Origin: Allomyces macrogynus ATCC 38327
Taxonomy: Eukaryota > Blastocladiomycota > Blastocladiomycetes > Blastocladiales > Blastocladiaceae
NCBI GenBank assembly: GCA_000151295.1
Contig: GG745350.1
Span: 800,336 to 859,332, forward strand
Reading direction: 5' to 3'
Length of the DNA: 58,997 nt
Made by a program: the position numbers and the translations under genes. Under the pieces are notes generated by a model that had not been told where the DNA came from, made no database searches, and saw only the letters and a program-made list of their open reading frames with translations. Positions 7,701 through 58,997 of this stretch are shown here, piece by piece. Within the stretch, counting starts at the first letter, position 1. Each line of letters begins with the position of its first letter.

Positions 7701-8431
7701 GCATTTCCGCCGACTCCCCGCACGACTTACCCAACACGCACCGGCTACGTCACGCCATGGTCATGCTGCGCAGCACGTCCCCGACCCCGTGCGGATCGCC
7801 CATGCAGCTCACGCTCGCGGCCGGCACCGGTGGCGGTGCCATTTGGCCGCACGCGAGGCAAGAATCGGGCGCATCGGTCGCGACCACGCCGTACTTTGCC
7901 CCGCTCGCGCTCGGGCGCGGACCGCGGCGCGCGTCCGCTTCGGCGACGGCGCGCGTGCGGCTTGATTCGATCGAGGCCGCGGCGATGGGTGTCCTCGGGA
8001 GCCCGCCGATGAATGTGGATGGCGACGGGGTTGCCGGCGCGTTCTCGATTGGGCCGCTGTTGTCGGAGTATGTGAACGCGGCGCGGAACTCGAGTGCCGT
8101 GGGGGCGGGGAAGGCCCTGCCCGTGCGGCCGGTGGATGGAGCGACCGAGAATGAAGTGGTAACGCCCGTGCCTGCCCCGCGCCGCCGCGGCCGGCCGCGC
8201 AGATCGACTAAGCGGGTTGCCGAACCGATGGTGGAACCGCCCTCGTCGGCCGAGGGGGTCTCGTCGTCCCTGTCGTCCCCACCGTCGTCGCCACCGCGGA
8301 CGCGCGCGGCGGCGGCGGCGCGTCGTGCGGCGGCCGCTGCCGCTGCAGCATCTTTGGCAACGACCAACACGGCAGATGACGCAACGCCAACACCGCCAAT
8401 ACTGCGGCGGGAACGGTCCGGTCGGGTGTGA
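4740..8431 (+). CDS. large C2H2 zinc-finger protein, putative transcription factor
   Basis: Two exons, 4740-5467 and 5521-8431, give about 1,212 residues. The 53-nt intron has a T-run after the donor; an alternative pairing (5463/5532) is also in frame. The only folded part is a tandem pair of C2H2 fingers near residues 505-560: [21 protein letters not shown], the canonical linker TGEKPF, then [20 protein letters not shown] ending in IH. The spacing and linker mark sequence-specific DNA binding. The rest is Ala/Pro/Ser/Thr-rich. It carries basic AT-hook-like patches ([23 protein letters not shown]), acidic patches ([15 protein letters not shown]) and a final poly-Ala run. The start is the ATG at 4740; an upstream in-frame GTG at 4731 is not a likely start. 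The target genes cannot be read from sequence. Confident as a zinc-finger protein, not as any named factor. Confidence 0.85.
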
Positions 8432-8991: not shown

Positions 8992-11900
8992 ATGATGCGC
9001 CCGCCACCCTCTTCACGACTTGCCACTGGGCACGATGCATCGACTTCGAGCGGGCGCAGTCTGTACACGATGCAAGGCGGTATCACTGTGCCCGTCGCCA
9101 CAGTCGCCTCGCATCAACAGCTTGACGGCGCACCGCCTGCCGCGATCCCGCCGTCGCACGTCCAGGGCGTGTACCACCCGTCCATGATCGCGCTCGGTAT
9201 GGAGCGGTCAGCGCAGATTGTGTTCCCCGCGTCCGGCAAAGTTTCGGTGATCCAGTCGGGTAGGTTAGTAGAGTCTTTTTCGTCGCTGATTTGGTTCTGT
9301 TCAGTCCTGGAATTGAATTTTTGGTTTCTCGCGTTGTGTTGGTTGATTGAACAGAACACGACAGGTCAACCATGGTGGTCGCCATGTCGCCCGACACGAC
9401 CGTTCCGATCATCGCTGTCGGCGACACGCGCGCGGGCCGCATCAGCATCGTCCATGGACCGAGCGAGCTCGTGTGCATCACACGCGAACTCGGCCAGCAT
9501 TTCCCAGACTTCAAGTTACGCGGCATGGTGCTCTGCTGCGTGCCCAGTACCGCGACTGGTTCGGCATCAAAGTGCGTCAGACCGACACGTCGACCTCCGC
9601 TTGAACCTTTGATTGACTTTGTTTGCGGAACCGTGCTTTAGGTTCGAATTGATCGCCTGGTCGCAGCACCTCGTGATTCGGTTCTACGACCTCGACTTGC
9701 GCGCCATGTGCCGCGCCGTCGATGCCAGAGAATACGACGCATTTTCGCAGGTATGGAGTTGGTGGTCGCGGACCTTGACAGGTCGAGATGTCTTCTGCCT
9801 TAGCCTGACGACCTATCGACTTTGTCTAGATTGAAGATTGAAGCGTCAATGGGGGCCGAGCTGCTCATTTTCCCGGTCCGAGGCGCGTTGAAGGCCGGCC
9901 AGTGCCACACGGTCGTCACCTCGGTAATTCCGATTCCGCCGCACTGTGACCCGGCCGACATGGTGCCAGGCCGGCACTATTCGCACCTCTTGGTCGTTGG
10001 CGAGGGCCCGAACTGCATGTCGCTCTGGACCCGCACACCCAACGCCTCGACCGCACACTGCGTCAACTGCGTGTCGTTGTCGTCATTGTATTCGCCGATT
10101 CGACAAGCGCACGCGGCACCCAACGGCATTGGCGTCTACACGCTCGACGCGGCCGGCCATCTGGCGTTTTGGACGATCACGAAAGCGTGCCGGATACGGC
10201 TGCTGCGCCAGTACGGCAAGCCTGTCGAGGACTTCGCGGTCCATGCGCTCGCTGCGGTCACGGCTGTATCGGCTGACCCGAACGTTCGGGTTGCGTCGAG
10301 CCACTTGGTCATGGTCGCGCAGCGCCGCACGTCGACCAAGGGCGACAAGCTGGGCCAGATCCGCAACGAGGGCGAGAATGTTGGGTCGCCGTGCATTCGA
10401 CTGCTCGATTCGCGAACATTTGACGAGGTGGACCGGTTCGACCTGCCGGAAATGGCGCGGGTTTGGTTGCCGACGACGATTGCACCAGCTGCGGCCGCGA
10501 AAGCGCCGTCGGCTGTGAATGCGCGGTCATTTGCAGGTGCCGTCGTCCTCCCCGTCGTCGGTTTGCTCACGGAAACGCACAACGGCGCGCCGTGCCTGCA
10601 GATTCGCGAAATTTTTGAGACGCAGTCGCGGCAGCAGCTGAGAGCGCTCATGCGCAACGGCGACTGGACCGCGGCATTGACGTTTGCGACGCAGTTTGGC
10701 ATGGACGTGCAGGATGTGCACGAGGCGCGTGCCACGGCTATGCTCGACGCGCCCGTCACGGCCGACCAAATGCTCGCGACCATTCAGCCCGTGGCCGACA
10801 CGGTCATCAAATGCAAGGTGTGTTTGCGGGCCAAATGCGCGATGCTCGCGGACGTGCGCCGATTGCTCGAAGCGGCCAAGGAGTATGGTACAGATGCACT
10901 CGCTGCGCTGCGCAACGAGGCCGAGTCACGCGGGATCTCGGCCAAGTCATCTCGTTCCGATGACGAGACTGGGTCGGTGGCGGCGGTGGCCAAGTCGAAG
11001 GGCCCGTTGGACGACGACTCGGCGAAGCGTTTGCTGGCCTAGATTGCCGAACTCGAGCAGCTTCAAAACAACGTCAACGACGCGATGCTGCGGCTCGGGA
11101 CCTGGTGCCTGTTCAACCGCTCGTACCAGATTGATTTGTGGCGCCGGTTCATGAACGAGGATCTGGTTGTCTCGGCGCAGGCGATTGCGGGATATGGGTT
11201 TATTCGCGACCTCAAGTTGCTCTGGACACGACACGACCCGGTTGCGCGACGCGATCGAGACCATTGTCACTTCCATCCCGCTCGACGTGCCCTCGGCCAA
11301 AGTAATTCCGTGGCTCCAGCGCGACGTGTTTCCTGCCACGAAGCCCGACGCAACCGCGGCACTGTTCAAGTGGCTTCAGTCGCGCGCAATTGCTGTCGAG
11401 GAGCTGCCGTCGCGCGGCCCGCAGGAAGCACTGCAGTTGATTGAGCTGATTTTGGCGGCCGCGACACCATCGACGCATTTGCAGACGCCCTTGGCCTGCT
11501 TCAAGTATGCCCTGAGCGTGGCATCGCCAGCCGTTCCGCCCGAAACGTTGCGGCTCGCGCAGTTGCTGCGTGATATCGTCTACCTGCACGAGACGCACGG
11601 ATACTCGATTTCGCTCGCGGCCTACCAGAACAAGTCGCCAGAGGAGATTGCCATGGCGCTGCTCGATCGTGCGGCGGTGCCGGAACTGCTCCCAATGGCC
11701 GTGAAAGAACATTTTGACCCGTACGTCGCACGGCACGACCTCGACCGCGACATGCTTCTGCGCGACTATTGCGTGCAGGTCCTCGATGAACGTGTCGCAG
11801 GCGCGTCGGCGCAGTGGGAACCGCGCGTCATGACGCTGCTCGAGTGCCTGTCGAGCGCGCAGCGGCGGTGCACGGTCATTGCCAACTTGATGACCTGTGT

Positions 11901-14900
11901 CGGCGTCCCGTGGAGCGACCAAGTCAACGCCCTGATCCGTGGCGCACTCGCACTCGATCCGGGCGCGTCTGGCACCCCTGCCGGCAGCGAAATGACTGCC
12001 GAGGACACGCCGTCGCCCGAGCAGCTGAGCGAGATTCGCGGCCACTACCAGCGCATGCTGATCCGACGCATGGTGCAGGCGTACCACATTACGGGGTTCG
12101 ACGTGTCCAACACGTGGCAGGCGCGGCAGCTCGTCAAGTTCTTCGTGACACGGCTCGATCGCACGCCGCTCGGCGGCACGGGACGCGCCGAGAGTCCGCA
12201 CGCTGACCGCGACTGCGTGCCGACCCTCGACCCGCTCGCCGATGCGCTCCAAGTTGCGGTATCGTACACGTCGCTATCGCGCGCGTTTGTGTTTGAAACG
12301 TTCTTGCTGCACCATGCCGAGACTCGGGGGCCGCACGTTCTGCGTGCTTACATGGACCTGCTCAACCAGCATCCGCGCCGGCTCGAGATTGCAGTCGCGG
12401 CTCGCGCTCCGGCCGCGTACATGGCGTCGTTAGTCGATCGTGCAACTGGCGCAGCGGGATCTACGGGTACTCGGCCCCCACTGGCCTCGGCTCGCGCGCC
12501 TAGTGCCGTGCTGCACGCCTCGAGCTCATTGAGAACGCGCTGGTCCTGTTTGAATATATCGAGCGGCATCTCGACCGCGCTGGTGTCGACCTTCACGCAA
12601 TGACCCAGGCCGCGCTTGTCAAGGCGCAGCGGCTCCAGATTGAACTCGATTTGGCCGCGCCGCTGTACAAAATGAAAACTGAGGACGCGTGTCTCGCGCT
12701 GTTCAAGGATATGGTCGAGACGTGGCGTGCGTCGGTCACCCGAGGGGACAAGGACGGCTCGATGTTGCAACTCGTCATTGGCCAACTCGCCGATATTCTC
12801 GCCATTCAGATCCCGACGGCGCGTCTGACCTTGATCCGGCATGCGCTCCAGGAGCGCAACGTTGCCGACGCCGTTTTGCTCGTGCAAACGTGCATCCAAG
12901 AGGAGGTTGTTCTCGACGTGCACGCGGTCATGCAGGATTTCGAGTCGTTTGTGGTTTCGAATCCACGATTCGTCACGGCCGACTTGGTCGCCAGCCTGAC
13001 CGCTCTCTCGCAATGCGCTGTGCTGCATGCCGAGGAACGGCAATTGCCCGCGGCTTTGGACCTGTATCGGCTCGTTGCGCTGCAGCAACTCGTCTTTGAC
13101 TTGACCGAGCTCTGTGATTATGGTCAGCATTTGCGCGCGTCGGCGGCAAGAACGGCGGGCGTCGAGACCTCGGCTGCAGCTTCGGATGCGGGCCGACCTG
13201 GATCGCCTCACTTGCCCGTGGAGGTGTTCCCGCACCAGTACGACTCAGATTCGGGTCTCGTGCTCGACCCGGTCACCGCCATCCCGCCGTGTGCGCGACT
13301 GATCCAACGCGGGCTCGAGGCGCTTGCTGCGATCCACCCGCAGTCGCTCCTGACCAAGCTCGGCCATTCGCGCAAGAAGAACAAGGGGCGTCAAGTCGAT
13401 CCCATGGCGATGCTGCACGAGGCCGTGAACGACGTGTCGCGGCTGCTAACTCGAGCCAAGCACTTCCAGACACGGCTGCTTCTCGGGGCTACGTTTGCCG
13501 AATTGGCGACCCGGTGTGTGCTCGACGGCACGCGCGAAGTCGACACCCTCCTGCACCTCCAACAGCAGCTGCAGGTGGTGGAAGGGACACGCGAAGTGTG
13601 CCAGTCGCTCGCCGGCGCCCGGAATCTGGACATGGCGCTCATTTTCGGTCATTTGCTCGAACTCGGATCCGTCGAGAGTGTGCGGGTCGTGCAAGAGTGT
13701 CTTGGGCAATTTCTCCAAGTCGCATGTCCTCTGCTCGATTGGCATTGCCTGCGGCACGTTTTGGCAACACCGCGCGGCCATCGCATTTTTTCTCGACTAC
13801 ATTGCCATCACGACGTGGACCGAGCAGCTCAGCCTCCTCGACATTCCGTTCCGGCAAAGCGACTTCAGTGATGAGACTGACCGGCAGACCAAGCTGCTCG
13901 AGTACGTGCCGCCGCTCCTCGACAAAACGGGGCTCGACTTGCTCGTCGCTCTCGAGTTTGCACGGCAGTTCAAGATTGACGAGGATCTGGTGCTGATCAT
14001 GTACATTCAGCAGCAGCTCAAGCATGGCAAGTCGAGGAGCAGAAGCGGCAGCAGCGGCTGCGCGAGTGGCGACAGTGCGCGTGGGCTCAATCGCGTCTTG
14101 TCTACGCCCTCACCCATCAACTACGAGTACCAGAACGCGATTGCTGGCGTCCACGGCGAGGTGCTGCGCAAGAAGCTGCTGGCCGGGGTCTACATGGCCG
14201 CATTCAACTACTCCGACCCGCACGATTACGACAAGATTCAGTTCATTTGCGAGCAGCTCGCTGATGTGGCGGCACACGACGGGGTCGACCTGTCGCACGA
14301 ACAGATTCATTCGTTCACGCTGGCGCGAACGGTGCTTGACGTGATTAGGCCGTTCAAGAAGCCTGCTGTCGGCGAGCTGGCCACGGTTGTTGCCGAGGAC
14401 GTGCGTGTCGCGCACGAGAACGGGTGGGATGTCGAGTGGGCGGAGAAGCGCGTGCAGCTACACGCGCTGTGCCATTCCCCGTGGGCATCAAGTCGCCGGT
14501 ACCTGTGTCCGGCCACGGTCGACCAGCTGCTTCCGATTGGCGCCGTGTTCAACCTTGATCCGGACACAATTTTTGGCCAACTCGTGACGCAAATCACGGC
14601 CCAGAAGGGATCGAGTTTGCGGTTCGCCGACGTGCGGCCCTACCTGCGCCAAATGCGCGGCAGCGTGGCGTTCAGCGTCGCGAAACTGGTCGGCGAAACC
14701 ACGCGCGGCAAGAACAAGGTGCAGGCGCTGCGATTTGCGTTTCAGTCGCTCGAGACGAGTCCCTTGCCGCCACCCGACGTGACGGCTGAGGCGGCGGACG
14801 CACGCCAAACCGTGACCGACCAAGCTGGTCGGCCGCCAAACAGGAGCACAACATGTCGGATGCAAAACGGCTACTTCTGGTCAAGGCGCTGCTTAACCGC

Positions 14901-37958: not shown

Positions 37959-38346
37959 GCTGGTCGTGCAGAGGCCGGGCGTGGTTCGACGAGCAAGACG
38001 GCGTGAGTTGAGTCGATGGACTGGCCGGTCGGTCGGCGACGAGCGAAATCGAACGGTCAAATGGGACGAGACAGTCGAAAAAAGCTGCGTGCGATTGCGG
38101 GCAGTGGTGCGCGTCGCCGTGGTCAGAGTCGGGCAAATGGACTTGTTGTCAAACAATGAAGTCGTGTAATGGACGAAGATAGTGGAGGCAGAAGAGACAA
38201 CGATGGGGATGGAGATCCCAGAACCCGGATCTCAACTTGGATTGAAAGTATTGAAAGGCTGCAGCAACACCCTTTCCGCTGTGAAATCCTGATCACGGCT
38301 CCGCCACAATCGCTTTTCGGCTGTGAATAGTTGCAAACAGCCAAGC
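37959..38346. other. shared promoter region of Aurora kinase (-) and STT4 (+)
   Basis: 388 bp between divergent starts, or 646 bp if STT4 starts at 38605. No motif that I can name. Confidence 0.45.
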
Positions 38347-38403
38347 ATGCCGCCGGATTCACGACCGACGCGCGCCGAGCTGCCTGGTCACGACAACGAC
38401 GAA

Positions 38404-38435
<32 letters not shown>

Positions 38436-41400
38436 CGACGCCCCGGACAAGGTCCGCGCGCTAGCCAACTCCCCGCACTGCCACCGCGCCCGGCGCCCGC
38501 GGTCAAGAGGGCGGCTCACGTACACCCTGCACGCTGTCGGTGCTCGCCGGCCTTGGATCAACCTAACACCAACAATCGCAGCCAATTTATCACGATATAC
38601 AACCATGCGCCCGCGCCTGCACGCCAAGTTGTGGAACGAGATTGCGCTTCTCGCCGCACACGACTCGCCCTCGCAGTCGGCCGACGGCGACTGGGACAAT
38701 GTCGCTGCCCTGATCGCCAAGACGGCGCACGCGTCGGTCCAGCAGCCCGACCGCCTGGCGCACGACGTGGCCGTCCTCTCGGCGCGCAACGCTGCCGCCA
38801 CGGGCCTCCCCGCCGCCGTTGACCGCGTTGTCGAGGCCGTCTGGACCACGACGCTCTCCCTCGTGCGCGATGTCGCACACGCGACCGACTTCCACAAGCT
38901 CACGGCCTCGTGGCTGCCCGCGCTGATTGGCCTGCTGCGCGCGCTCGCCGACATGGGCATCGATGTACCTGCTGCCACGCTCGCCAAGAGCTGGGATTTC
39001 CTCGTGGCCATTTCGCGCGACCCGCACTTGCTCGATGGCGTCTCCGACAACCTCGCCAAACTCGATGCCGACCCACTGCTCGCGCGGTACCGCCGCCGCC
39101 TCGCGACTTACTGGCAGCGCCGCCCCTTCTCGCCCGACGTCATGTATCTGCAGTGCATCGCATTTGTGCGCAACGCGCTCGCCATGTACATTACGCGCCA
39201 CCATCTCGCGCCCGCAACCGCCGATCCGCAGGGTACGCCCGCCTTGGCCGCTAAGCGTGCTGCAAATGCCGCTGCCAATGGCGTGCCAGACGGTGGGGAC
39301 GTGTCCGACGACAGCCAGGACGACCAGGGGTCGGGCGCATCACTGCAAGACGACCGATCCGGCAGCGGCAGCACCAGTCACGGCGGACCTGGCAGCAACG
39401 GGTCCCCCACGACCGACTCGCTTGCAGGCCTGACCGAATCGACGCCCGCATCCATGGCCTCCATGGGCCGTCCGGACCCCGACTTTGCCGCGGCCTGGGC
39501 GCGCCTGCTGACCTCACCGCAATTTGTGCACCTCGATGCGCACACAATGCCGCGAGCCGTCATGGAGCAAATCACCAAAGTGTGTCTGCAGCACTATGCC
39601 GTCAAGAAGATCCCCGAGATCATGGCCGTTAACTTGCAGACGTGCTGCCTCGCGTGGCTCCTCTCGCCGCTGACGCTCGACGCGGTGATCCCGATCCTGT
39701 TCGACACGTTTGCCAGCGCCTCGACACCCGACACGATTCACGCGCCCGTGCTCGTTGCCGCCGCCGAATCGCTCGCCATTCTGGTCTCGGCACTCGCCTC
39801 GCCTGCGGCCATTTTGCAAGTGCAGAGCTTTCTCGTCGACTTGCTCACGCGGCCGCATCCGGCGTTTGCGTTGCTCGCGCAGCGCAACCACGGCGACGAT
39901 CTCGCGCGACTGCGCACGGCCGTGATCCAGGCGCTCACGGCGTGCGCGCTCGCGTCGCCGCCCGGCACCCGACTTGACGGCACGCTCTACTCGCTGTTTC
40001 GCAACGCGGCCGGTGATGTGGCGCAGGTCAAGTTTGACAATTGCTGTGCTGCCGTTGCGGCACTCACCTGTGCGGTGCGGCCCGCCGACGACCTCGATGC
40101 GGTCGTCACGTTCTTCACGCGCATGTTTATCATGCCGGCGGCTGACGGGAAAGCAAATGCGCCCGGTGCCGCACGCACTGAGTCGACGCACCTCAATACG
40201 CTCCCGTGCCTGCGGTACCTCGCCGACATTGCCCTCGTGGCTCCGCTCAATCGGTTTGGCGAGATTGTGGGTTTCTTCTCGAAACACGCCAAGGAGAACT
40301 TGAATGACGATGCCGTCTCGCGCGTCGTCGTCGAGTGTGTCGACCGCATGTCGGCTGCCGCGACACCCGTGCAGCGCCGGATCGTGCTCCACACGCTACT
40401 GACGTTCTTTGTGGACAAGGCGTCGTATGTCTGGACGCAGGCGCGCGCGCCCGGGGCACCTGCCGCGTCCAAGGCCGACCGCGCCGATTTGAGCAAGCTC
40501 CTGTTCTTCATTTCGAAAATGTGTCATGCCGTGCACGACGACCGCAGCTCGGGTGGGTTCGAGGCGCTCACGGCGGCTGGGCCCAAGTCGGCCGTGAATG
40601 GGGTCGCGGACGGTGGGACCGAGTTGTTGCTCGACGATGGCAGTACCGGCGGTAGCGTGCCGACCAATCAGTCGTTCCAGGCGCTATTCCGGTCCATGTG
40701 GTACTTTATCGTCGTGCTCGACTTTGTCTCCGACGATGCTGCGCAGGACCACGTCGTCGACATTGCCCTCTACTCGCCGTACGTGCAGTTTGCGTCGGTC
40801 ATCGAGTCCTACTTCCAGTCGCCCGCGCACAAGGTGCGGCTCGCGCAACTGCTGGCCACGCCCGCGCTCGCGACACCGTTGACCGTCGAGCAGGCGCTCT
40901 ACCTCGTGACCATGTTCCATGTCATGTGCTGCTGCGCGAGCGAGTCAAAACTCGCGCCGCTCGCCCTGCTCGAGACCATGGTCCCACACAAGCAGTTGTT
41001 CCCGACGTTCTTGCAGTTGCTCGACCACGTCATGGCCAAGTTTTTTTACGGTAAGAAGCCGCCGCGTGGGGACAAGGCCGCACTCGTCACGCTGGCCACG
41101 CGCCTGCTTGAGGGCGCCATGCATCCACACGACCAGATTGCCGCAACGTGTCTCACGCACCTGGCCAAACTCGTCGAGCGGTACCCGGCGCTCCTCTACT
41201 CGCGCGCCGTCCTGTTCCCGGCCGTCAAGACCGCGACCGACAAGGAGCACGGCGCTGCCGTCATGCCCGTGCTCGCGCGGTGGATCGCGGCGGGTCGGCC
41301 GGCACTGCTCGTGACGCTGCTTGCAAGCTACATTGTCGACGACACGACGCGGCCCGTGGCCCCTGTCCTCGCGCAGCTGCCGGCCGCACAGGTCAACGAC

Positions 41401-44171
41401 TTGACGTGGTTCTTGTGCCAGTTGAGCGCCGCGCACGCGCAGGGGCCGTACTTGGACGTGGCGGGGGTGCTCGCGCAGTGCGATACCATGACCGCGACCC
41501 TGCAAGACTGTAATGGTACGGTACCGCACGACATGGTGCAGCTGCAGTCGCTGCTTCTCAAGCTCGTCGTGGTCCTGATCCACCGGCAAGTCGACATGGC
41601 GCTCGTCAAGCAACTCGTCTACTTGCCGCTGCGGTCATTTGCGCGACCCGTGCTCCACATGGCCGTGCGCGCCTGGCACGCGCTCCTCCTGCATCATCCC
41701 GACCTCGAATCGAGCCTGTTTGTCCTGCTGGAACGTGCGTGGCACCTCTACGTGATCCCTCACCGCGGCCTCTTCCGCGCCGCCGCACCCGTACCCGACC
41801 CGCTCGCCGACAAGGTCAACTACACGGGCGAAAAGTACGATGTTGCGCCGACGCCCATCGAAGAGGAATTCGCCGCGACCATGGACGTGCTCGAGTTCTT
41901 CGCCGATCGGCTCGAGTGCTCCCTGCAGTTGCCACAATCCTACCTGCAACTCCTTCTCGCGAGCCTCGACCCGGCGCATCTCGCCAAGCACGGCGAAGCG
42001 CGCGCACCGCGGTTCGCGCTCCTCGCGCTCGTCCTGCGCGCGTCGCAACACTCGGCGTGTACCGACGCCGTGCGCGAACTCCTGCGCGTGCGGGCGACAC
42101 AGTGCGCACTACACTGGTTCGCGCTCAACCCGCAGTGGGCGCGCACGCCCGCGGCCGACGCCGGGCACGTGTACGCGTTCTGGCGCATGATCGGGTCGGC
42201 ACTGCCGCGCGCGACCGCGGAAGTGAAACTCCTCCGGCTGCTCGTGGCCTCGGAACTCGACCGGCTTGCGACTTGGGCCAGTCCAGATAACCCGCCGCCC
42301 GTGGCCGACGACGTCGCCGCGGTCCTTGCCACAGTCGGAGCCATGCCCGCGGCTGCGTGGCGCGCGCACTTGCGCACGGCCGCCGCAGCGGCACCGGCGA
42401 TCGGGTACCAGCTCGCGGCGCGGTTCCATGCGCCGCCCGTGCTGGTCGCGGAACTCGAGGCGATGACACGCGCGCGTGCGCACGTGCCGGCTCTGCACGC
42501 GTGCACGCTGGCGATTCCGTACTTGGTCACCGCAAGCAATGTCGCGCGCGACGTGCCGGAACTGCGGTACCTCGCGTACTGGGCGCCCGTCCCGCCGATC
42601 CAGGCGGTGGGCCTGTTGCAGCCGGTCGTGCCGGAGACGGACCCGCACCCGGTGGTCGTGCAGTACGCGTTGCGGTCGCTGATGGCGTTCCCAATCCAGT
42701 CGGTGTTTTTCTTTGTGCCGCAGATCGTGCAGGCGTTACGGCATGACCCGTTGGGTTACGTGTTCCAGTATATCGTGCGGGCCGCACACACGTCGCCCGT
42801 GTTTGCGCACCAGATTATTTGGAATATGAAGGCCAACATGTACCGCGACGAGGTACGGTTGATGAGTCCGGTGGGCGGAGTTTGGGTTGATTGGGTGGCG
42901 GTTGCTGACTTCTCGATTTGCGCCCCTTCTACGTAGGCCGGCAACGAGCCCGACGCGCTGCAGCCCGTGTTCGACGCGATCATCAACCAAATCATCACGA
43001 CCTTCTCGCCGGGCGACTTGTCGTTCTACGAGCGCGAGTTTGCCTTCTTCAACAAGGTCACGGCCATTTCGGGCAAGCTCAAGCCGTACATCAAGCGGTC
43101 GAAGCCCGAGAAGAAGAAGAAGATTGACGAGGAGCTCGCGCAAATCCAAGTTGATGTCGGGTGCTACTTGCCGAGCAACCCGGAATCGACCGTCGTCGAC
43201 ATTGACTACCAGTCGGGCCGCCCGCTGCAGTCGCACGCCAAGGCGCCGTTCCTGGCCACGTTCCAAATCGAGCGGCAAACGCTCGTCGCACCCTTCCGCA
43301 CCGAACGTGTCTGGCAGTCAGCCATTTTCAAGGTTGGCGACGATTGCCGCCAGGACGTGCTCGCCCTGCAGCTGATAGCGCTGTTCAAGTCGATTTTCGC
43401 CTCTGCGCACTTGGACCTCTACCTGTTCCCGTACCGCGTTGTGGCAACCGCGCCCGGGTGCGGTGTGATTGAGGTGATTCCGAAGGCGATCTCGCGCGAC
43501 ATGATGGGCCGCGAAAAGATCAACTCGCTCTACGACTACTTTGTTGCCAAGTACGGGTTGCCGCACACGGCCAAGTTCCGCGCCGCGCAGCACAATTTCA
43601 TCACGTCGGTCGCGGGTTACTCGGTCATTCTCTACTTGCTGCAGATCAAGGACCGGCACAACGGCAATGGTATCCGCTTCTTTCTCTTTCCCCACAGCCG
43701 TTCCCGCCCCTTCGTTTCGGTTTCTAACCGTTCTCTCGTCTCCACCTAGTCATGATCGACGACGACGGCCACCTGCTGCACATTGATTTCGGGTTCATTC
43801 TCGACATCTCGCCCGGCGGGATCAACTTCGAGTCGTCGCCGTTCAAGCTCACGTCGGAAATGATTCAAATCATTGGGCCCATGGGCACCGACTCGTACAA
43901 GCATTTCCAGAACTGTGTCGTGCAGGCCTTCCTCGCCGCGCGGCCGTTTGCCGCCGAGGTCGTAGCCATGGTGCAGTTATTGGCCGAGTCGGGCCTGCCG
44001 TGCTTCAAGGGCGAGGCGACGCTGCGCAAGCTGCGCGCGCGATTCGTGCTCGACAAGTCGGACCGCGACGCGGCCAAGTTCATGATGGACCGCATCAATG
44101 AGAGCTACGAAAATAAGCGCACGGTCTGGTACGACGAGTTCCAGAAGCAGACGAACGGGATCCCGTACTAA
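38347..44171 (+). CDS. STT4: phosphatidylinositol 4-kinase type III alpha (STT4)
   Basis: Three exons, 38347-42852, 42937-43669 and 43750-44171, give 1,886 residues, close to yeast Stt4 (1,900). The large N-terminal part is a helical solenoid. The C-terminus holds the helical/PIK domain and the lipid kinase core. Landmarks are SHAKAPFLATFQIERQ, the FKVGDDCRQDVLALQLI hydrophilic block, FPYRVVATAPGCGVIEVIP, the catalytic loop KDRHNGNVMIDDDGH spanning an exon junction, the metal-binding HIDFGFILDISPGG, and FKLTSEMIQIIG. It makes PI4P at the plasma membrane, in complex with Efr3 and Ypp1/TTC7. The reading frame is clean over 5.6 kb. The start is uncertain: 38347 is the first in-frame ATG and includes an Asp run encoded by a (GAC)n repeat at 38398-38440; an ATG at 38605 would drop 86 residues of low-complexity sequence. 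Confidence 0.95.
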
Positions 44172-44609: not shown

Positions 44610-47600
44610 ATGGCCGAACTGAACCTCGAGACCCTCGACATGAACCAGGAAGAACGGGTCAGGTTCCTCCCCATCAGGCGCTGCCGGCAGCTTTCGCGTG
44701 CTGCTCACCTGCAATGACTGGGCAGACAGGACATCTGGAAAACGGCGGCTGTTTCGCTGCCAAACGCCCTTGCTGCTGCCGACGACGTTCGCACGGCGCA
44801 CAAGCGCCTTCGCGAATTGGAATTACACGATCGCGAGCACAAACTGCAGGTCGCGGATGCGGTCGAAGCGGTGTACCTCAATGGGTTTGGTCAACAATTG
44901 CACGTTCGAGGAGATTTGCCTGTCGCTCATCTGTTGATGTTTTACCTCTAGCTGTAATCCGGCCCAGGACGAAAAAGTCCGCGAAATCTCGGCCGCTGCG
45001 CCAGATGCGCGCCACCTCCTCAGAGCTCAGAAGCGCTGCGACCTCGCACTGCTCTACTTTCGGTCGAAGTTGAGCCCGGTATGCCTGACTTCAGCGTTTT
45101 TCTGCTTGTTGCTCAATGGCTGACTTCCCTGCTCTGTAGGCCGTGGCACCGGTGCATTCGGCCACCAACCAGAAGCTGCTTGCCGCGATTGCAGGGCTCC
45201 GGCAAGACTTTGCCGATTTTCGGCAAGACTTTGCTAATTTTCGGCGCGACGCTGCTTCCTCCAAGCGCGAGATATTGACGATTGCCGCGTTGGGGGTCAT
45301 TCAAGAGTGGAATACGCGGCGCGCCAAGGAGCGCAACCTGATGGCTTCCAATGCCTACCACTACGCGCTCGTGAGCGCTGCCGGGCTCACTCACGACTCG
45401 CTCGATTATCCCCTTTCCCCCCTCCACCCGTCCCATGATTGTCTGGCAGCTGAGCTTGACGGTGCTAGCTTTTTGGAACGGCACGAACAAGGTACTTGCA
45501 TTTCGGTGGATCTGAATCACGTTTCTCTTCTCCATTTGACTTGGGTCGTGATCACTCTAAATGGGTGTATATCGTGGCCCCAATGGGCCACGATACATAT
45601 CGGGTTTTTGGGATTGCTTACCCCGAGCGTTGCTTACCCCGAGCGTTGCTTACCCCGAGTAAATCCTAATATATCGGGTTTTTGGGATTGCTCACCCCGA
45701 GCGTTGCTTACCCCGAGTAAATCCCGATATCGGGATCCTGGGATGGCTTACCCTGAGCGACTCGGTCTGAATATATACCGTTCCCAATTGCTTACCCCGA
45801 GTAAATCCCGATATCGGGTTTTTGGGATTGCTTACCCCGAGCGACTCACAATCTGAACGCATGCCGTTCCCAATTGCTTACCCCGAGCGAATCCCGGAAG
45901 AGATCCTGGCCCATAACGTGCCTGGGCGGCCAATTGCTTACCCCGAGCGAATCCCGGAAGAGATCCTGGCCCATAACGTGCCTGGGCGGCCAATTGCTTA
46001 CCCCGAGCGAATCCCGGAAGAGATCCTGGCCCATAACGTGCCTGGGCGGCCAATTGCTTACCCCGAGCGAATCCCGGAAGAGATCCTGGCCCATAACGTG
46101 CCTGGGCGGCCAATTGCTTACCCCGAGCGAATCCCGGAAGAGATCCTGGCCCATAACGTGCCTGGGCGGCCAATTGCTTACCCCGAGTAAATCCCGGAAG
46201 AGATCCTGGCCCATAACGTGCCTGGGCGGCCAATTGCTTACCCCGAGTAAATCCCGGAAGAGATCCTGGCCCATAACGTGCCTGGGCGGCCAATTGCTTA
46301 CCCCGAGTAAATCCCGGATCGCACCTCAGCGCCCAGGGCTGGTCCGCGACTCTCAGCAAAAAAAGCGCGTGCGGTGATGCGCCCCGGGAACCTATGGCGA
46401 GCGGCCTTGGTGTGCTTCCCCGCGTCTTCTCCACCCGCGCTGACAACTCATGGGATGGGCCAAGGGGTTGCCCTGAGCACGACCTCAACCACGACCTCTG
46501 AGGTCGTCCTTATTTTCCGTGGCTTACCCTGAGTGTTTTTAGATATCCTCTTTAAGTTTTCTTAGTATGTTAATGTCTGGGGTAAACAAGTGAGTAAGGT
46601 CGTTTAGGTCGTGGTTTCCAGCACAAAGTTGGCCAGAGAGTGGGGAGGGGGGCGTGCAAAAAGCCAGGCAGTTTGGTCCGTGGAGGACGACCTTCACGAC
46701 CTCCCGCCGTTGGCCGCCCCGATCACGTCTGGTGGTCCCCGCCAACGGCCGTTGCTTACCCCGGGTGAGGATATTTTCGTGCCCTCTCCCCACGACCTCT
46801 CTGCGATGCGGTTGGCGAACCCAGGTGGCGAGAAAGGCATGAGGCTTTTTTCCCCAAATCGCCCTGGTGAATGGGCACAATTCGCCAGGGATCCTCTCAG
46901 CGGACGGCTGTGGATCCCGCGGGGCCCCATGCAGCGCAGCGGAATGGGGTGGCGGGCCGTGGACATGGTGCACGAAGACGGCCACTTCAAGTCAAGGGGA
47001 CTTTACTTGAAGCCTTAGTCAAACGTCATGGTGTACCGTCCCTTGCACAGTTCACGGAAGGCGAGGTACATTCGTGAGTCCGCCAGGCCGGCTCGCCGGT
47101 ACGTCTGCGGGAGTGCTCCTGGATGCGCTGTTGTCCTGGATGCTTGCGCGGCGCTCGTCCGCGGCTGATCCGTGGCTTTGGTCTCCAAGCACGACGCTGT
47201 TCTCGACCGGGGATCCTGGCTGTGGTGCGGCATGTTGCCTTGCAGAGAGACGCGCAAGAAAACACATCACGAACGCGTTACCTAACGCGCAAGAATCTTA
47301 ATGGATGACGGTCGTCCCGTTCGCCGATGCCACGATGACCCGATCGTGGGCAACCCACGAGTGGAAGTTGGTCTGCGGAGCGTTTGATGGGAGCTCGATC
47401 ATGACTTCGATCGGCAGGTTCGAGACAACGCCTGACGAGTTCCCGGACATGGCGGACCGGACAACGTCCAGATTGAGCGCCAGCAGGAACTGATTGCCGT
47501 CCTCGTGGTACCCCTGCATCGAGATGACGCCGCGCACGTTGTGGTTGAACGCCGAATTGAGGAGAGCCCAGGACTCCACGGACGATTTGATGGGCTTGTT

Positions 47601-49520
47601 GGGGTACACGGCGTTGCCAATCTTGAACTGGATCGACGAGATCCCTGCGTGAGTCCGGCCATACGTCTTGGAGACGGTCGTGACTGTCTGGGACGATGCC
47701 ACCGCAGCATCCTGAAGCGCGATCAGCAAGGTCGACTGGGACTTGTCGCGGTTGTTGATCACCACGGTGTTCTGCCCAGGGCTTGGCCAGGGATTTGCCC
47801 GTGTCCAGCGCCATGGTGGGGATGGAAGCATACAGGGAACAGATTCTGAGCCGCCTCCACGGCCCGCCACCCCATTCCGCTGCGCTGCATGGGGCCCCGC
47901 GGGATCCACAGCCGTCCGCTGAGAGGATCCCTGGCGAATTGTGCCCATTCACCAGGGCGATTTGGGGAAAAAAGCCTCATGCCTTTCTCGCCACCTGGGT
48001 TCGCCAACCGCATCGCAGAGAGGTCGTGGGGAGAGGGCACGAAAATATCCTCACCCGGGGTAAGCAACGGCCGTTGGCGGGGACCACCAGACGTGATCGG
48101 GGCGGCCAACGGCGGGAGGTCGTGAAGGTCGTCCTCCACGGACCAAACTGCCTGGCTTTTTGCACGCCCCCCTCCCCACTCTCTGGCCAACTTTGTGCTG
48201 GAAACCACGACCTAAACGACCTTACTCACTTGTTTACCCCAGACATTAACATACTAAGAAAACTTAAAGAGGATATCTAAAAACACTCAGGGTAAGCCAC
48301 GGAAAATAAGGACGACCTCAGAGGTCGTGGTTGAGGTCGTGCTCAGGGCAACCCCTTGGCCCATCCCATGAGTTGTCAGCGCGGGTGGAGAAGACGCGGG
48401 GAAGCACACCAAGGCCGCTCGCCATAGGTTCCCGGGGCGCATCACCGCACGCGCTTTTTTTGCTGAGAGTCGCGGACCAGCCCTGGGCGCTGAGGTGCGA
48501 TCCGGGATTTACTCGGGGTAAGCAATTGGCCGCCCAGGCACGTTATGGGCCAGGATCTCTTCCGGGATTTACTCGGGGTAAGCAATTGGCCGCCCAGGCA
48601 CGTTATGGGCCAGGATCTCTTCCGGGATTCGCTCGGGGTAAGCAATTGGCCGCCCAGGCACGTTATGGGCCAGGATCTCTTCCGGGATTCGCTCGGGGTA
48701 AGCAATTGGCCGCCCAGGCACGTTATGGGCCAGGATCTCTTCCGGGATTCGCTCGGGGTAAGCAATTGGCCGCCCAGGCACGTTATGGGCCAGGATCTCT
48801 TCCGGGATTCGCTCGGGGTAAGCAATTGGCCGCCCAGGCACGTTATGGGCCAGGATCTCTTCCGGGATTCGCTCGGGGTAAGCAATTGGGAACGGCATGC
48901 GTTCAGATTGTGAGTCGCTCGGGGTAAGCAATCCCAAAAACCCGATATCGGGATTTACTCGGGGTAAGCAATTGGGAACGGTATATATTCAGACCGAGTC
49001 GCTCAGGGTAAGCCATCCCAGGATCCCGATATCGGGATTTACTCGGGGTAAGCAACGCTCGGGGTGAGCAATCCCAAAAACCCGATATATTAGGATTTAC
49101 TCGGGGTAAGCAACGCTCGGGGTAAGCAACGCTCGGGGTAAGCAATCCCAAAAACCCGATATGTATCGTGGCCCATTGGGCCACGATAGTGTAAGCCGAT
49201 TGGCGCAATGTTCGCGATCGAAGATTGCTCGATCGTTTGTGTGCCACCGGCACTTGTTTGCGGTGGCGAGCACAGCATCTCCCCGAAGACGGTCAAGGAT
49301 CTGTTCACGTTACCGATCGACAAGTTGCAGAAGCTCGAAGGGCTATACAGCGTGCTTTTTGGTGCGGGCTTTCGACTTGGCTGCAATGCTTGGGGTTGCC
49401 CTTGCCTGACCCGATCTGTTCATCTCAGTGAATGCTCAGCACCCCACCGACGGTGCCCCAGCCCAACCTGGATCTCGCCAACCCGCATCGATGGCGCAAG
49501 TCGTCAATGTTGCTCAATAA
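44610..49520 (+). CDS. uncharacterised coiled-coil protein, 'CVPP' family copy A, with a transposable element in intron 5
   Basis: Seven exons: 44610-44657, 44730-44884, 44952-45078, 45140-45370, 45450-45491, 49196-49361, 49429-49520. All phases agree and the product is 286 residues. The first half is Ala/Leu/Glu/Arg-rich helix, likely coiled coil (RTAHKRLRELELHDREHKLQ), with a duplicated RQDFADFRQDFANFRRD stretch. The second half has a compact module, IEDCSIVCVPPALV... SISPKTVKDLFTLP...LQKLEGLYSVLFG, and a short Pro/Gln tail. The same module, with a phase-1 intron right after the final ..FG, is found in copy B at 52659-54256 (SISDTSLVCVPPKIA), so they are paralogues. I do not know the family. 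Intron 5 (45492-49195) is 3,704 nt because it contains the element at 45570-49188; without it and one target-site copy it would be 80 nt. If splicing works the gene is intact. Confidence 0.55.
45565..45569. repeat. target-site duplication, left copy (GTGTA)
   Basis: GTGTA directly precedes the left end of the element; an identical GTGTA directly follows its right end at 49189-49193. Removing the element and one copy restores a continuous host sequence. Confidence 0.8.
45570..45595. repeat. terminal palindrome of the left arm
   Basis: TATCGTGGCCC and its complement GGGCCACGATA are separated by a few bases, so each element end can fold into its own hairpin. The right end has TATCGTGGCCC..GGGCCACGATA at 49164-49188 with one centre base fewer. 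Confidence 0.8.
45881..46320. repeat. 60-bp tandem repeat array, left arm (seven units)
   Basis: The unit starts AGATCCTGGCCCATAACGTG and contains GGCGGCCAATTGCTTACCCC. It repeats with period 60 at 45901, 45961, 46021, 46081, 46141, 46201 and 46261. Units differ only at one two-base site (GAGCGAATCC versus GAGTAAATCC). Because 60 is a multiple of three the array is open in several frames, which creates spurious proteins. Confidence 0.95.
46480..46800. repeat. cluster of ACGACCTC/GAGGTCGT motifs in the left arm
   Basis: Around nine copies of the octamer or its core in both orientations, for example CACGACCTCAACCACGACCTC, TGAGGTCGTCC, TTTAGGTCGTGG, ACGACCTTCACGACCTCC and CCACGACCTCTC. The right arm mirrors them at 48025-48340. 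They may be protein-binding sites of the element. Confidence 0.7.
47015..47233 (-). CDS. small open frame in the element core
   Basis: 72 codons from the ATG at 47233, directly downstream (minus strand) of the capsid-like fragment. It is Arg/Ala/Thr-rich and ends in a more protein-like segment (RMYLAFRELCKGRYTMTFD). It could be the start of the next viral gene, cut off and closed by the left arm, or chance. I do not recognise it. Confidence 0.25.
   Translation of the reverse strand: MPHHSQDPRSRTASCLETKATDQPRTSAAQASRTTAHPGALPQTYRRAGLADSRMYLAFRELCKGRYTMTFD
47298..47855 (-). pseudogene. fragment resembling a double-jelly-roll major capsid protein (polinton-like virus/virophage type)
   Basis: The minus-strand frame gives about 170 clean residues to the stop at 47298. 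Landmarks are ISSIQFKIGNAVYPNKPIKS, SWALLNSAFN, FLLALNLDVVRSAMSGNSSG, LPIEVMIELPS and a final HDRVIVASANGTTVIH. The pattern 'G...YP..PI...E....L..AF', then 'F...LdL......SG', then 'hD.v.....G...v' is what I know from the second jelly roll of polinton-like and virophage capsid proteins; this is from memory of the family pattern, not a search. The N-terminal half is missing. Near 47770-47850 two other frames carry protein-like sequence (LYASIPTMALDTGKSLAKPW), so a frameshift may lie there. The upstream part of the open frame comes from the right arm. An isolated capsid fragment without ATPase, protease or polymerase cannot make particles. Confidence 0.5.
47856..49188 (-). repeat. right inverted arm of the element
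   Basis: 1,333 bp, reverse complement of the left arm but with six instead of seven 60-bp units, which accounts for the length difference of 61 bp. The inner boundary lies where the shared sequence TCCACGGCCCGCCACCCC starts. Confidence 0.9.
48541..48900. repeat. 60-bp tandem repeat array, right arm (six units)
   Basis: Same unit as at 45901 in inverse orientation, with period 60 at 48541, 48601, 48661, 48721, 48781 and 48841. The two units nearest the element centre carry the TAAATCC variant, mirroring the left arm. Confidence 0.95.
49189..49193. repeat. target-site duplication, right copy (GTGTA)
   Basis: Directly follows the element. The next two bases are AG (49194-49195), the proposed 3' splice site of host intron 5. 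Confidence 0.8.
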
Positions 49521-55008: not shown

Positions 55009-56900
55009 TCATTCCATTTCCTTTCGTGTCCCATCCACTACTGCCCTCCTCTCGCCATGCCCCGCATCCGACCCTGGCGGGACCCCCACCTGGAACCGAA
55101 TCCCCTTATCGTCAAAGTAGACGCGCGTCACATTCCAGTGTGGCGAATGGCCCAAGTCGCTCCAGAACCGCGGGAACTCGGCCTCGACCTCGGCGTACGC
55201 TGCATCAAACGCACGCACGGTCTCCCCACCCCCCACCCGCGCCGCCTGCTCCTGCAGCACAATCGCATGAAAGATCGACTTGACCATATCCCGCGCCGTC
55301 GCGTCAGAGCGGTACGCGATCCCGACCGTTCCGCCGCGCGACGGCACATGCCGGACTAGGTACCGCTCGTGCCGCAACACGTGCAATGCCTGCGCGAGGT
55401 GTCGCCCCGCAACGCGCGCATCGGCGGGCGCGCCGCGAATGATGGACGCGGGGGAGGCGAGAGTCGTCGGGTGGCCGAAGAGACGCGCGACAGAGAGGCC
55501 CGGGGCGAGGTGTGGGATGTTGGGTGAAGCGCGGAGCCATTCGCCGAGCGGACCGTGTTCGGGTCGCGACGCGAGGGTTTCGGCGCAGGGGAGGGCGATA
55601 TGGGCGGGGTCCGATGCCGGGTTAGCGGTGACCGCGCGCGAGCGTTCGCGCCATTCCTGCGCAAGCAACGCGACTTTCACGTCGTTGAGCACGTCAAAGT
55701 GCGCTTCGCGCAGCATCGAGACGGAGCACCAGAGCTGTAACGGCGCGAGCGCCGCGTAGCACGTGAATAGGAACGGCGCGTCGTGCCGCCAGAGCGCGAT
55801 CACGGCGACGCCCACGCCGGAACCGAGCATGTGCGCGACCGACAGTTGCGCCTCGTCTTTCGCGACAATGTCCCCGACGTTCCCACGGCGCGCGTAAATT
55901 CGCGCAATCGTCGTGTGCACCGCCGCCCAGACCGAGAAGTGAATCGACCGCAACGCGCCGCCGACCGAGGCCAGCGGGAGGAACCAGGCCGGGGACGGGG
56001 CGATGGCTGTGAGCAGCGAGACGAGCGCGCCGGTGACGCTGGCCACTTCGCCGACGAGTTTCCAGGACTTGACGCGCGCGTCGAATTGCGACGCGAACCG
56101 TTCGATGAAGAGCAGTTTCATGATTTCGCCGAGCCCGTCCTTGAGAATCCACCGGACGGCAACGGCACCACCCGCGGCCGCGGCCGCGTCAGTGGCCCCA
56201 CCGTGGCCGCCGATGCCGAGGGCCGCGAGCATGGCTTGGCTGCACAGGACGCCGATGCAGGACCCAGCGGCGGTTTCTGTGAATTTCCACAGGTGGAAGC
56301 GCAGGTAGGAAGGGTGGACCGAGTCGGGGTAGCCGACGGGGAGGAACTACGCATTGTTCAAACAGAGGAATTTGATCAGTGTTTCAGTTGTTTTGCTTCG
56401 ACCAATAACAAAAGGAGCCGTGTAAATACCGTCGACCGGAATGTCTGCATCGCGCGCCCCATACTGAGCAATCCACCGGACCAGCGACGCGCAGCTGCGG
56501 CCGTCGCGCCCTCCCCTACCTCGTCGTGCCATGTCCATTGCAACGTCGGGTCCGCGGCGGTCTCGGTGGCCGACTTGGTCCCGGGCACGCCGTGCAATGC
56601 GTAGATGCGCGTACGACCGTGCAGGTCTTCGTTGAGGTGCAGCGCGTGCGGAGCGAGGTCGTGGTTGACACGAACGGCCACGTCCGTGGGGGGTGCGGGA
56701 GTCGCGGGTGCGATGGCAGAGGGCGGGTTTCCGGTGGACGTTGGTGGGGGCGTGGTCAAGAAGCGCGCGAGCGCTTGGTACATGGGTACGGCTAGTGGGT
56801 GCGGCAGGACGCGGTGCGGGGTAGAGCTTGGCCAAGAAGATGTTGGGCACGCGGGGGTGCGATGTAGGAGCTGCCGCATGGCAGTTCGGTGCGGGAACAT
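55009..56900 (-). CDS. RUS1-family (DUF647) protein
   Basis: Two exons on the minus strand, 56900-56430 and 56346-55009 (83-nt intron), give 602 residues. The RUS domain starts at the second exon: [40 protein letters not shown], then [40 protein letters not shown] and [20 protein letters not shown], all core motifs. Several hydrophobic segments make it a likely membrane protein. Plant relatives (ROOT UVB SENSITIVE) act in UV-B and auxin responses and human C16orf58/RUSF1 is poorly understood, so no reaction is assigned. The first exon is Pro/Ala-rich with little conservation and could start lower. The C-terminal 120 residues are duplicated in the remnant at 50404-50830. The gene is divergent from the dynamin gene. 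Confidence 0.88.
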
Positions 56901-57489
56901 GGCGCTGGCCTCGTGCAGGCGTGCTGATGTTGACGGCGAGTTGTGCGGTTCTTTGGAGAGAAAGAGCGAGTTATTAGTCGGTCATGGCAGATCTTGTTGT
57001 GGCCGGCATGCCGCCGTCGCCGTAGTGATCAGCGGAGACAGAGCGGCGGGCGACACTGTCTCCCGTCTCCTGCCCGGCGCACGTGACCCGAAACTTGATT
57101 TTGCACATGAAAAAGCACGGTGGAAGCACAGCCGAAACCAGCGCGAAAGTCGAGCCGACCCCGCACGTCGCCACGGCCGCCACGACCAAAGCAGGGGAAC
57201 ACTGAAGCACACACCACCACCCCCGCATCCGGCTGGACCAACGGACACTGCGCGACGACGCGCCCGCGCTCCCCACTGCACTCGATACTCTCGCCACTCG
57301 CCGCAGTCCACCCGCGTGCCGCTCCGCTCCACGGCGTCGCCCGCCCCGCCGCTCCCGACTTTGCGCCTGCCTGCCCGCGCGCACCAACTCGGCCTGATCC
57401 AGCTCGCTTATCACGGGGCCGCCATCTGCCCCGCCCACCGTCGCCAAGACGCCGCTGCCGCCACCACCTGCGCGCCCGACCCGCGGCAC
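56901..57489. other. divergent region between RUS1-family and dynamin genes
   Basis: About 590 bp that should contain both promoters and the unidentified start of the dynamin gene. The plus-strand frame leading into the dynamin homology is open through this region, but the sequence is not protein-like. Confidence 0.4.
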
Positions 57490-58997
57490 GACCTGATCCC
57501 GCTCATCAACAAGCTACAGGATATTCTCTCGGCGATTGGCAACTCGCCGCTCGACTTGCCGCAGATCGCGGTTGTTGGGTCGCAGTCGTCGGGAAAAAGT
57601 TCTGTGCTCGAGGCGATTGTCGGAAAGGACTTTTTGCCAAAGGGCAACGGGATCGTGACGCGCCGTCCGCTGGTGTTGCAGCTGCGCAATGTCCCGCCGC
57701 ACGCGGTGCCCGAGGGCGAGGAGGCCGTGGATGTCGCGGTTCGTACTTTCCTTCGTTGACGTGCAGTCGACAATCCAGCAGCATCCTGATCGCCATCCGG
57801 CCATGACCAATTAGGAGTTCAGCCACTGCCCCGACCGCGTCTTCACCGACTTTGCCGACGTCCGGCGCGAGATCGAGGCCGAGACGGCCCGGATCGCGGG
57901 CGACAACAAGGGCATCGCGTCTGACCCGATCCGGCTGTGCGTGCGGTCGCCCAACGTCGTCGACCTGACGCTCGTCGACTTGCCCGGGCTGACCAAAATC
58001 CCCGTCGGCGACCAACCGTCCGACATTGAACTGCAAATCCGCGAACTGATCATGGGGTTCATCACCAAACCCAACTGCCTGATCCTCGCCGTCTCGCCCG
58101 CGAACGTCGACTTGGCCAACTCCGACTCGCTGAAACTCGCGCGCGAAGTGGACCCGACGGGCGACCGCACGCTCGGCTTACTGACCAAAGTTGACTTGAT
58201 GGAACCGGGCACGCACGCGCTCGATATCTTGGCGGGCCGCGTCTACCCGTTACGGCTCGGGTTTGTCGGCGTGGTCAACCGGTCGCAGCGCGACATCGAT
58301 CAGGGCAAGTCGCTCGAGTTTGCGCGCAAACGCGAACAGCAGTTCTTTGCAACGCATCCGGTCTACTCGCCCGTGGCGTCGCGGTGCGGGACGACCGTCC
58401 TGGCGCGCACGTTGAACCAGGTCCTGCTCGCACACATTCGCGACCGGCTGCCGGACCTCAAGGCCAAGTTGAATGCGCTGATCAACGCGAAACAGGCCGA
58501 ACTCGTCGCGCTCGGCGGCGGGGAAACCGCGCACTCGGGCCAGTCCCCAGCATCCACGGTCCTGCGGCTCATCACCAAGTACGCGGCCGAGTTCCAGGCG
58601 TCGGTTGAGGGCACCGTGACCGCATCCGCGACGACCTCCCTGTCCGGTGGCGCGCGCCTGTTCCAGGTGTTTGACCAAGGGTTTGGCAACGCGCTCGATG
58701 CCGTCGACCCGATGTCGACGCTCACCGTGCGCGAGATTCGGACCGCCATCCGTAACGCGACCGGTGCGCGTGCGGCGCTGTTCTTTGTCCCCGAGGCCGC
58801 GTTTGACTTGCTCGTGAAACCGCAAATCGCACGGCTCGAGGAACCGGCGCTGCGGTGCGTCGACCAGGTGTACGAGGAACTCCTGCGGCTCACGCACGAG
58901 TGCGGGTCGGCGGAACTGCGGCGGTACCCGATTTTGCGCGCAAGGGTCGTCGATGCGATCGCGCAGTTGCTCAAGGAGTACTGGACGCCGCGCGGAA
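57490..58997 (+). CDS. DNM1: dynamin-related GTPase, Dnm1/Drp1 type, truncated by the window edge
   Basis: Homology starts at 57490 ([20 protein letters not shown]); no in-frame ATG lies close upstream, so the first codon or exon is unresolved. Exon one ends at 57738; the next starts at 57815 and runs off the window. The GTPase domain is complete: [12 protein letters not shown] (G1), [14 protein letters not shown] (G2 region), [11 protein letters not shown] (G3), LLTKVDLM (G4), VVNRSQRDI (G5). The middle domain follows, with [20 protein letters not shown] and then [33 protein letters not shown] and [18 protein letters not shown]. The [10 protein letters not shown] and FVPE..FD.LVKPQI blocks favour Dnm1/Drp1 (mitochondrial and peroxisomal fission) over Vps1. 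The GTPase effector domain lies outside the window. Confidence 0.9.

Follow-up and report, generated by a model that had tools for sequence, protein, structure and literature searches.

Introduction

Foldback elements of animals and plants consist of long inverted arms, built of tandem repeats, on either side of a short core, and those of animals usually duplicate 9 bp of target sequence; the target duplication of classical Polinton/Maverick elements is 6 bp. MITEs are present as many short, near-identical copies, and solo LTRs mark places where an element has been lost and one of its repeats left behind. Parvoviruses have terminal hairpins. We know of no settled account of how polinton-like viruses without a protein-primed polymerase copy their ends.

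The terminal hairpins of poxviruses exist in flip and flop forms (PMC8956199). In bacteria, nearly precise excision of a Tn10-related transposon involves short direct repeats at its inverted repeats (PMC12524634). Sputnik and PgVV encode a fusion of TVpol with a superfamily 3 helicase (PMC4642659, PMC3671162). Polinton-like elements of fungi and oomycetes have been described with target duplications of 5-7 bp in three elements, and the same work already noted genes for a major capsid protein, an ATPase and a helicase in Allomyces macrogynus (PMC7805220). A D5 primase-helicase of this fungus has been taken as a sign of a giant virus (PMC5294986). According to a 2023 abstract, no dsDNA virus was known in fungi (PMC10640383); the assemblies of Bellas et al. 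2023 excluded fungi (PMC10120064), and the words non-autonomous, truncated and MITE are absent from the main text of PMC12220804.

Here we describe an insertion in a 58,997-nt stretch of A. macrogynus ATCC 38327 DNA (the window), and compare it with its relatives in the 54.0-Mb, 75-contig assembly of this genome.

Results

Structure of the window element

An insertion of 3,619 bp, the window element, occupies positions 45570-49188, downstream of a phosphatidylinositol 4-kinase gene, in which the open reading frames (ORFs) covering the kinase domain end at 44171. The sequence GTGTA abuts both ends (45565..45569 on the left, 49189..49193 on the right), and the sixth base does not match. The left arm (45570..46963, plus strand, 1,394 bp) and the right arm (47856..49188, minus strand, 1,333 bp) are inverted relative to each other and align over 1,333 positions with 0 substitutions and 61 gap positions. 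The gaps fit one C in the left tip and one copy of a 60-bp tandem repeat, present in 7.5 copies on the left (45870..46318, plus strand) and 6.5 on the right (48501..48889, minus strand). Perfect inverted matches of 1,034 and 680 bp cannot be due to chance. Each arm ends in a terminal palindrome, or tip, with an 11-bp stem; the left tip is 26 nt long (45570..45595, plus strand) and the right tip 25 nt (49164..49188, plus strand). An unpaired core of 892 bp (46964..47855) separates the arms. An earlier note on this DNA had described a foldback-like insertion with exact ends, GTGTA duplications, inverted arms and a short core, and our analysis confirms that structure. The terminal palindromes, which proved to be the most informative part of the element (see below), received no particular attention in the note.

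Near the left tip, the arm contains tandem repeats of 16, 58 and 84 bp, based on TTGCTTACCCCGAG (45614..45896, plus strand), which are about 89-92% identical, over the longest matching stretches, to those in the terminal repeats of a full-size relative on contig C66. A search of the whole assembly found the middle of the arm (46320..46906, plus strand) only in the two arms of the window element. A sensitive comparison with the fetched relatives gave only short matches to it, of at most 24 bp, and neither a full-length copy with the same arm middle nor an exact parent was found in the assembly. The GGGGTAAGCAATTGG / CAATTGCTTACCCC motif of the window arms was also seen beside a more distant capsid-candidate locus (C55:986000-988000) and in the flank outside another end, of the group that we call clade II below (C60:644889-644999). 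This motif may be dispersed in the genome.

From the inner end of the left arm, a stretch of 873 bp (46910..47782, minus strand) runs into a capsid-candidate gene; it is 96% identical to the subterminal region on the capsid side of the C66 element, and its first 54 bp lie inside the left arm. The earlier note had rightly placed the sequence in a fungus and recognised the core as viral. The 873-bp stretch includes the last 157 codons and the stop codon of the gene (47298..47771, minus strand), the sole conserved coding stretch that we found inside the element. A predicted open frame of 216 amino acids (47298..47948, minus strand) leads from the right arm into this fragment. Compared with the C66 gene, 23 of 158 codons differ (stop included), 15 of them silently and 8 with an amino acid change. 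Searches of Pfam, PHROG and PDB with the fragment returned nothing meaningful. The 873-bp stretch is followed by 74 bp at the deletion junction (47783..47856, minus strand) and then by the right arm; a search of the whole assembly found the 74-bp stretch only here and no source for it. The window element lacks a counterpart to about 11.9 kb of the C66 interior (12.76 kb against 892 bp). Apart from the capsid-candidate fragment, no genes of its own for replication, packaging or integration were recognised, and no integrase gene was found; the earlier note, too, had described an element without transposase or integrase. We class it as a derivative rather than as a virus.

Both flanks were searched against the assembly for an empty site, and none was found; apart from itself, the left flank had no match and the right flank had two partial ones, at 72-73%. 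The large phosphatidylinositol 4-kinase gene (38323-44171) has PI4K_N, PIK accessory and kinase domains according to Pfam. Other host ORFs with Pfam matches encode a C2H2 zinc finger protein (5468-8431), KNTC1-like ARM repeats (11167-12603), UVB_sens_prot (55009-56232) and dynamin (56605-57759); eight further ORFs flanking the element had no Pfam match.

A full-size relative on contig C66

The core of the window element has one other match in the assembly, at C66:358897-359715 (96% identity). This match belongs to a 15.5-kb element, C66:345735-361245, which shares both tips and core with the window element. The 25-bp tip recurs at C66:345735 with 1 mismatch and at C66:361221-361245 with 0 mismatches; the inner arm end recurs at C66:346877 and C66:359716, so that the inner arm boundaries of the two elements agree within about 9 bp. 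The C66 arms measure about 1.2 and 1.5 kb; their alignment covers 1,209 positions, with 31 mismatches and 330 gap positions. The element is flanked by ATGAT/ATGAT, again with no match at the sixth base.

The integrase of the C66 element matches PF00665 rve (4e-11, L011:8608-9498), and a piece of an A32-type ATPase matches Pox_A32 above the curated cut-off (2.6e-6). The ATPase (L012:4165-4976) reads in two overlapping frames, with the Walker A part, recognised by eye, separate from the part that matches A32. The helicase corresponds to AMAG_06705 (100% identity over 93% of the query) and matches DUF5906 (1.7e-19); a profile of nine helicase sequences matches two solved primase sequences (2.4e-25). 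Its assignment to superfamily 3 is putative, as is a polymerase-like front part, judged by eye from motifs. Another protein of the element is identical to AMAG_06710 of A. macrogynus ATCC 38327. By eye, a repeat-rich ORF of 683 amino acids is fibre-like, one of 388 amino acids is a possible penton, and a further ORF is HNH-like. Among the 19 distinct ORFs given to Pfam, none matched DNA_pol_B. Tandem repeats of 69 and 81 bp are present inside the provirus (L011:7098-7233 and L011:8321-8559), the latter in a long open frame beside the integrase.

An ORF of 406 amino acids is our candidate for the double jelly-roll major capsid protein of polinton-like viruses, on the basis of its neighbourhood and size. 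It matched no Pfam family, its profile had no meaningful match in the PDB, and a single-sequence structure model (mean pLDDT 31) was unusable. The candidate and a profile of seven sequences, searched against 5.8 billion protein sequences, found only the A. macrogynus protein itself. With the helicase profile, the 7,995 candidate sequences sharing most words yielded nine proteins, seven from A. macrogynus and two from A. javanicus. IMG/VR contained no relative by the capsid profile or by the helicase sequence, and one 17.2-kb contig by the helicase profile (23% identity), in which terminal repeats were not found.

With an RVE integrase, a helicase, an A32 ATPase, inverted repeats and a 5-bp duplication, the predicted gene set of C66 is that of a polinton-like virus, and the element is by its sequence a polinton-like provirus. 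This full-size relative, with the expected genes, supports the suggestion that the insertion in the window is a non-autonomous derivative of such a virus.

Terminal palindromes in three clades

The A. macrogynus assembly contains many polinton-like elements: the C66 helicase has 37 matching stretches in it and the C66 integrase 48, although other rve proteins are probably among the weak integrase matches. Elements of three clades (I, II and III) were found to end in palindromes of 25-27 bp. The window and C66 elements belong to clade I. A third clade I end lies on C75; its tip is degenerate, and no partner was seen in the 10 kb retrieved.

For clade II, a search with a 31-nt subterminal motif located 34 ends, all of which were read. 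The motif runs into a palindrome of 25-27 nt at 31 of them and lacks a tip at the other three, a tip being defined by pairing at at least 6 of 10 positions. This rule alone is lenient: among 18,687 random sites in the window outside the element, 2,459 pair at at least 6 positions. Pairing at 9 or more was seen at 11 of these sites and pairing at all 10 at none; of the 34 clade II ends, 21 reach at least 9 of the 10 pairs, and pairing is complete in 13 of the 31 tips. On C61, two clade II subterminal motifs lie in the same orientation 9.8 kb apart (C61:1234416 and C61:1244235), the first without a tip and both without a convergent partner, which suggests a rearranged element.

The two halves of the clade II tips covary. 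In the 28 unique tips, 245 of 280 possible pairs form. When the outer arms were shuffled in 10,000 trials, the mean was 213.2, the maximum was 231 and 245 was reached in 0 of 10,000, a count that is not a probability, as the shuffles ignore the relatedness of the elements. Both sides have changed at pair 3 in 7, at pair 6 in 10 and at pair 7 in 9 of the 28 tips. Pair 6 is C-G in 18 tips and G-C in 10; at pair 3, 21 tips have G-C, 6 have C-G and 1 has A-T. Neither position has a broken pair; pair 7 is broken in 6 tips. The exactly paired stems include GCGCC, GCGGG, GCGCG, CCGCC, CCGCG and GCGGC, and a single double change cannot account for several differently paired stems. A single transition would restore the pair in 31 of the 35 unpaired cells, which are A.C or G.T; this fits tips that were perfect at insertion and decayed later.

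The loop of the clade II palindrome also varies. Among the 31 tips it is TCAA-like at 14 ends, TTGA-like at 9 and symmetric or unclear at 8. The loops at the two ends of one element are opposite in C48 and C58 and the same in C61, C72 and C74; C41 and C55 are uninformative. In clade III (elements on C59, C60 and C67), the tip TGCGTATGCCCTTAAGGGCATACGCA is nearly constant at the 10 places where it was found with up to 3 mismatches, and these near-identical tips speak neither for nor against covariation.

Palindromes were also seen elsewhere. A 25-bp palindrome with TG..CA ends, TGTCCTATACCGTAGGTATAGGACA, lies downstream of a helicase in the C65:1230845 region (L039) and may be the tip of a further clade. 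Another palindrome lies beside the polinton-like locus L040.

Target duplications and solo tips

Matching 5-bp flanks were present in 11 of the 12 two-ended elements examined across the three clades: in both clade I elements, in all three of clade III (C59, C60 and C67) and in six of seven in clade II (C41, C48, C58, C61, C72 and C74, with C55 as the exception). The earlier note had held that a 5-bp duplication fits no known class; this part of it does not stand, given the 5-7-bp duplications in print for fungal and oomycete polinton-like elements (PMC7805220). The window element is the one short copy among the 12, and none of the seven and three convergent pairs in clades II and III, whose ends are 13.8-22.4 kb apart, is a short derivative.

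Some tips stand alone. When up to 3 mismatches were allowed, the clade I tip was also found on its own at C66:592900-592924, with one mismatch and with CCGTC/CCGTC as its flanks. The 10 places found with the clade III tip comprise the six ends of the three elements and four solo tips, which are flanked on both sides by CGACG, GAGCT, CTGAC and AATGC, respectively. All five solo tips, 25-26 bp in length, thus have a perfect 5-bp duplication of their own. They match the fetched elements and arms over at most 27-34 bases, that is, the tip and up to 8 further bases. Because the matches end so close to the tip, no arm sequence remains beside the solo tips.

Discussion

The window element is, in our judgement, probably a non-autonomous deletion derivative of a polinton-like provirus that was inserted by the integrase of a relative acting in trans, with tips copied through hairpins and with solo tips produced by recombination between tips. 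Some 12 kb of genes would have been lost while the element was extrachromosomal or replicating, and the RVE integrase of a relative would then have inserted the short form and created the 5-bp target duplication. Movement of a gutted copy by a relative's integrase is likely because its ends and core are common to the C66 element; with one short copy among the 12 two-ended elements, there is no family of copies to prove that the short form has moved. The main rival, to which we give a minority chance, is that a full-length provirus integrated at this site and then suffered an internal deletion of about 12 kb in the chromosome, so that the short form never moved. Such a deletion would preserve tips, arms and duplication unaltered, and it would account for the single short copy and for a junction that looks like a simple deletion with 74 unexplained bp. 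It sits less well with the state of the arms, which differ by 0 substitutions in 1,333 positions in the window element and by 31 mismatches in 1,209 in C66: identical arms leave little time for a later deletion, unless gene conversion homogenises them. The lack of any other copy with the window arm middle in the assembly also argues against deletion in place. A true, non-viral foldback family that captured a piece of the capsid-candidate gene would explain the long arms of tandem repeats and the short core, but the arms, the tips and the duplication length, beyond the core alone, match a full-size provirus, and the assembly searches found no other short copies. The C66 element has already largely refuted this very improbable reading, and a new foldback family, which the earlier note had considered, is not needed, since the virus has the same ends, duplication length and core stretch. 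We see just as slight a chance that the structure is an assembly artefact. Near-identical long inverted arms are difficult to assemble, but one repeat unit and one base in the tip set these two apart, and C66, an independent relative on another contig, shares the architecture and has a duplication of its own.

As regards the tips, the covariation of the clade II halves between copies makes it probable that the inner half serves, by way of a hairpin, as the template for the outer half while the element is in its mobile phase. A polymerase that primes itself on the folded end would yield covarying halves, and mismatches would build up after integration; host repair of a cruciform is another route by which the same pattern might arise. 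Covariation and the two loop orientations together point to hairpin copying, which, if true, keeps the halves of a tip matched while its sequence drifts and lets the loop flip. It is somewhat unlikely, in our view, that the palindromes are instead paired binding sites for a protein, the integrase or another, and that their halves covary by fitting the same protein. The tips do coincide exactly with the points of integration; in clade II, TG..CA at the outer edge and GACC/GGTC on the inner side hardly vary, and the clade III tips are nearly constant throughout, all of which would suit a binding site. A fixed specificity does not predict the many paired sequences found at the variable clade II positions. 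The loop, which faces one way in 14 of the 31 tips and the other way in 9, also speaks against a binding site. The solo tips suggest, in turn, that elements were lost by deletion between their tips. The palindromic form of the tips makes the left and right ones direct repeats of each other as well, and as such they can serve for deletion; slippage or recombination between them, aided by the inverted arms, would leave a solo tip. Alternatively, the tip alone might have been inserted, as a tiny hairpin DNA used by the integrase, in keeping with five solo tips of 25-26 bp that each have a perfect duplication and with matches that stop within 8 bases of the tip. We regard this as unlikely, reasoning that a 26-bp substrate would have to offer both ends to one integrase complex, and because nearly precise excision between short direct repeats has a precedent in bacteria (PMC12524634).

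Taken together, the covarying palindromes and solo tips suggest hairpin-copied ends and the loss of elements by deletion between tips. We tentatively propose, as a possible rather than a probable scheme, that the polinton-like viruses of Allomyces have linear genomes with hairpin telomeres, the 25-27-bp palindromes, which are re-copied in each cycle and joined to the chromosome by the integrase with 5-bp duplications, that solo tips are a countable record of their losses, and that the window element is a defective genome which depends on these ends alone to travel. Covarying tips in integrated copies would then give, from sequence alone, a concrete and testable answer, hairpin ends, to the question of how such viruses copy their termini. 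Solo tips would allow past insertions to be counted at sites that no longer hold the virus, in the way that solo LTRs are used for retroviruses, and a gutted copy whose ends are intact would amount to a natural non-autonomous passenger of a fungal DNA virus. The tip palindromes and the solo tips are the part that specialists would want to test.

Several known systems resemble these elements in part. The window element shares long inverted arms with internal tandem repeats with foldback elements, but its ends, duplication length and core are those of a provirus, and the duplication is 5 bp, not 9 bp. In contrast to a MITE, one short copy was found in the assembly. The 5-bp duplication also separates these elements from classical Polinton/Maverick elements, as does the lack of any match to a protein-primed family B polymerase in the C66 ORFs tested. 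The inferred loss of an element by joining of short direct repeats, with one left behind, is like the excision described for a Tn10-related transposon (PMC12524634); here, however, the repeats would be the terminal palindromes themselves and the element a eukaryotic provirus. A terminal palindrome with its loop in both orientations recalls the hairpins of poxviruses, as described in PMC8956199, and of parvoviruses, although the Allomyces tips are known from integrated copies alone. The C66 replication protein resembles that of Sputnik and PgVV (PMC4642659, PMC3671162) in the predicted fusion of a polymerase-like domain, recognised by eye, to a helicase, and the Allomyces elements differ from both in their RVE integrase and 5-bp duplications. 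In the titles and abstract openings covered by our searches of the open literature, neither covarying nor solo tips were described, nor any gutted polinton-like copy. Close to these elements are the fungal and oomycete polinton-like viruses, with which C66 shares the RVE integrase, helicase, ATPase, inverted repeats and 5-bp duplication (PMC7805220). Polinton-like genes in Allomyces were already known from that work; new, relative to the description given there, are a copy that has lost nearly all of its genes, terminal palindromes whose halves covary, and solo tips.
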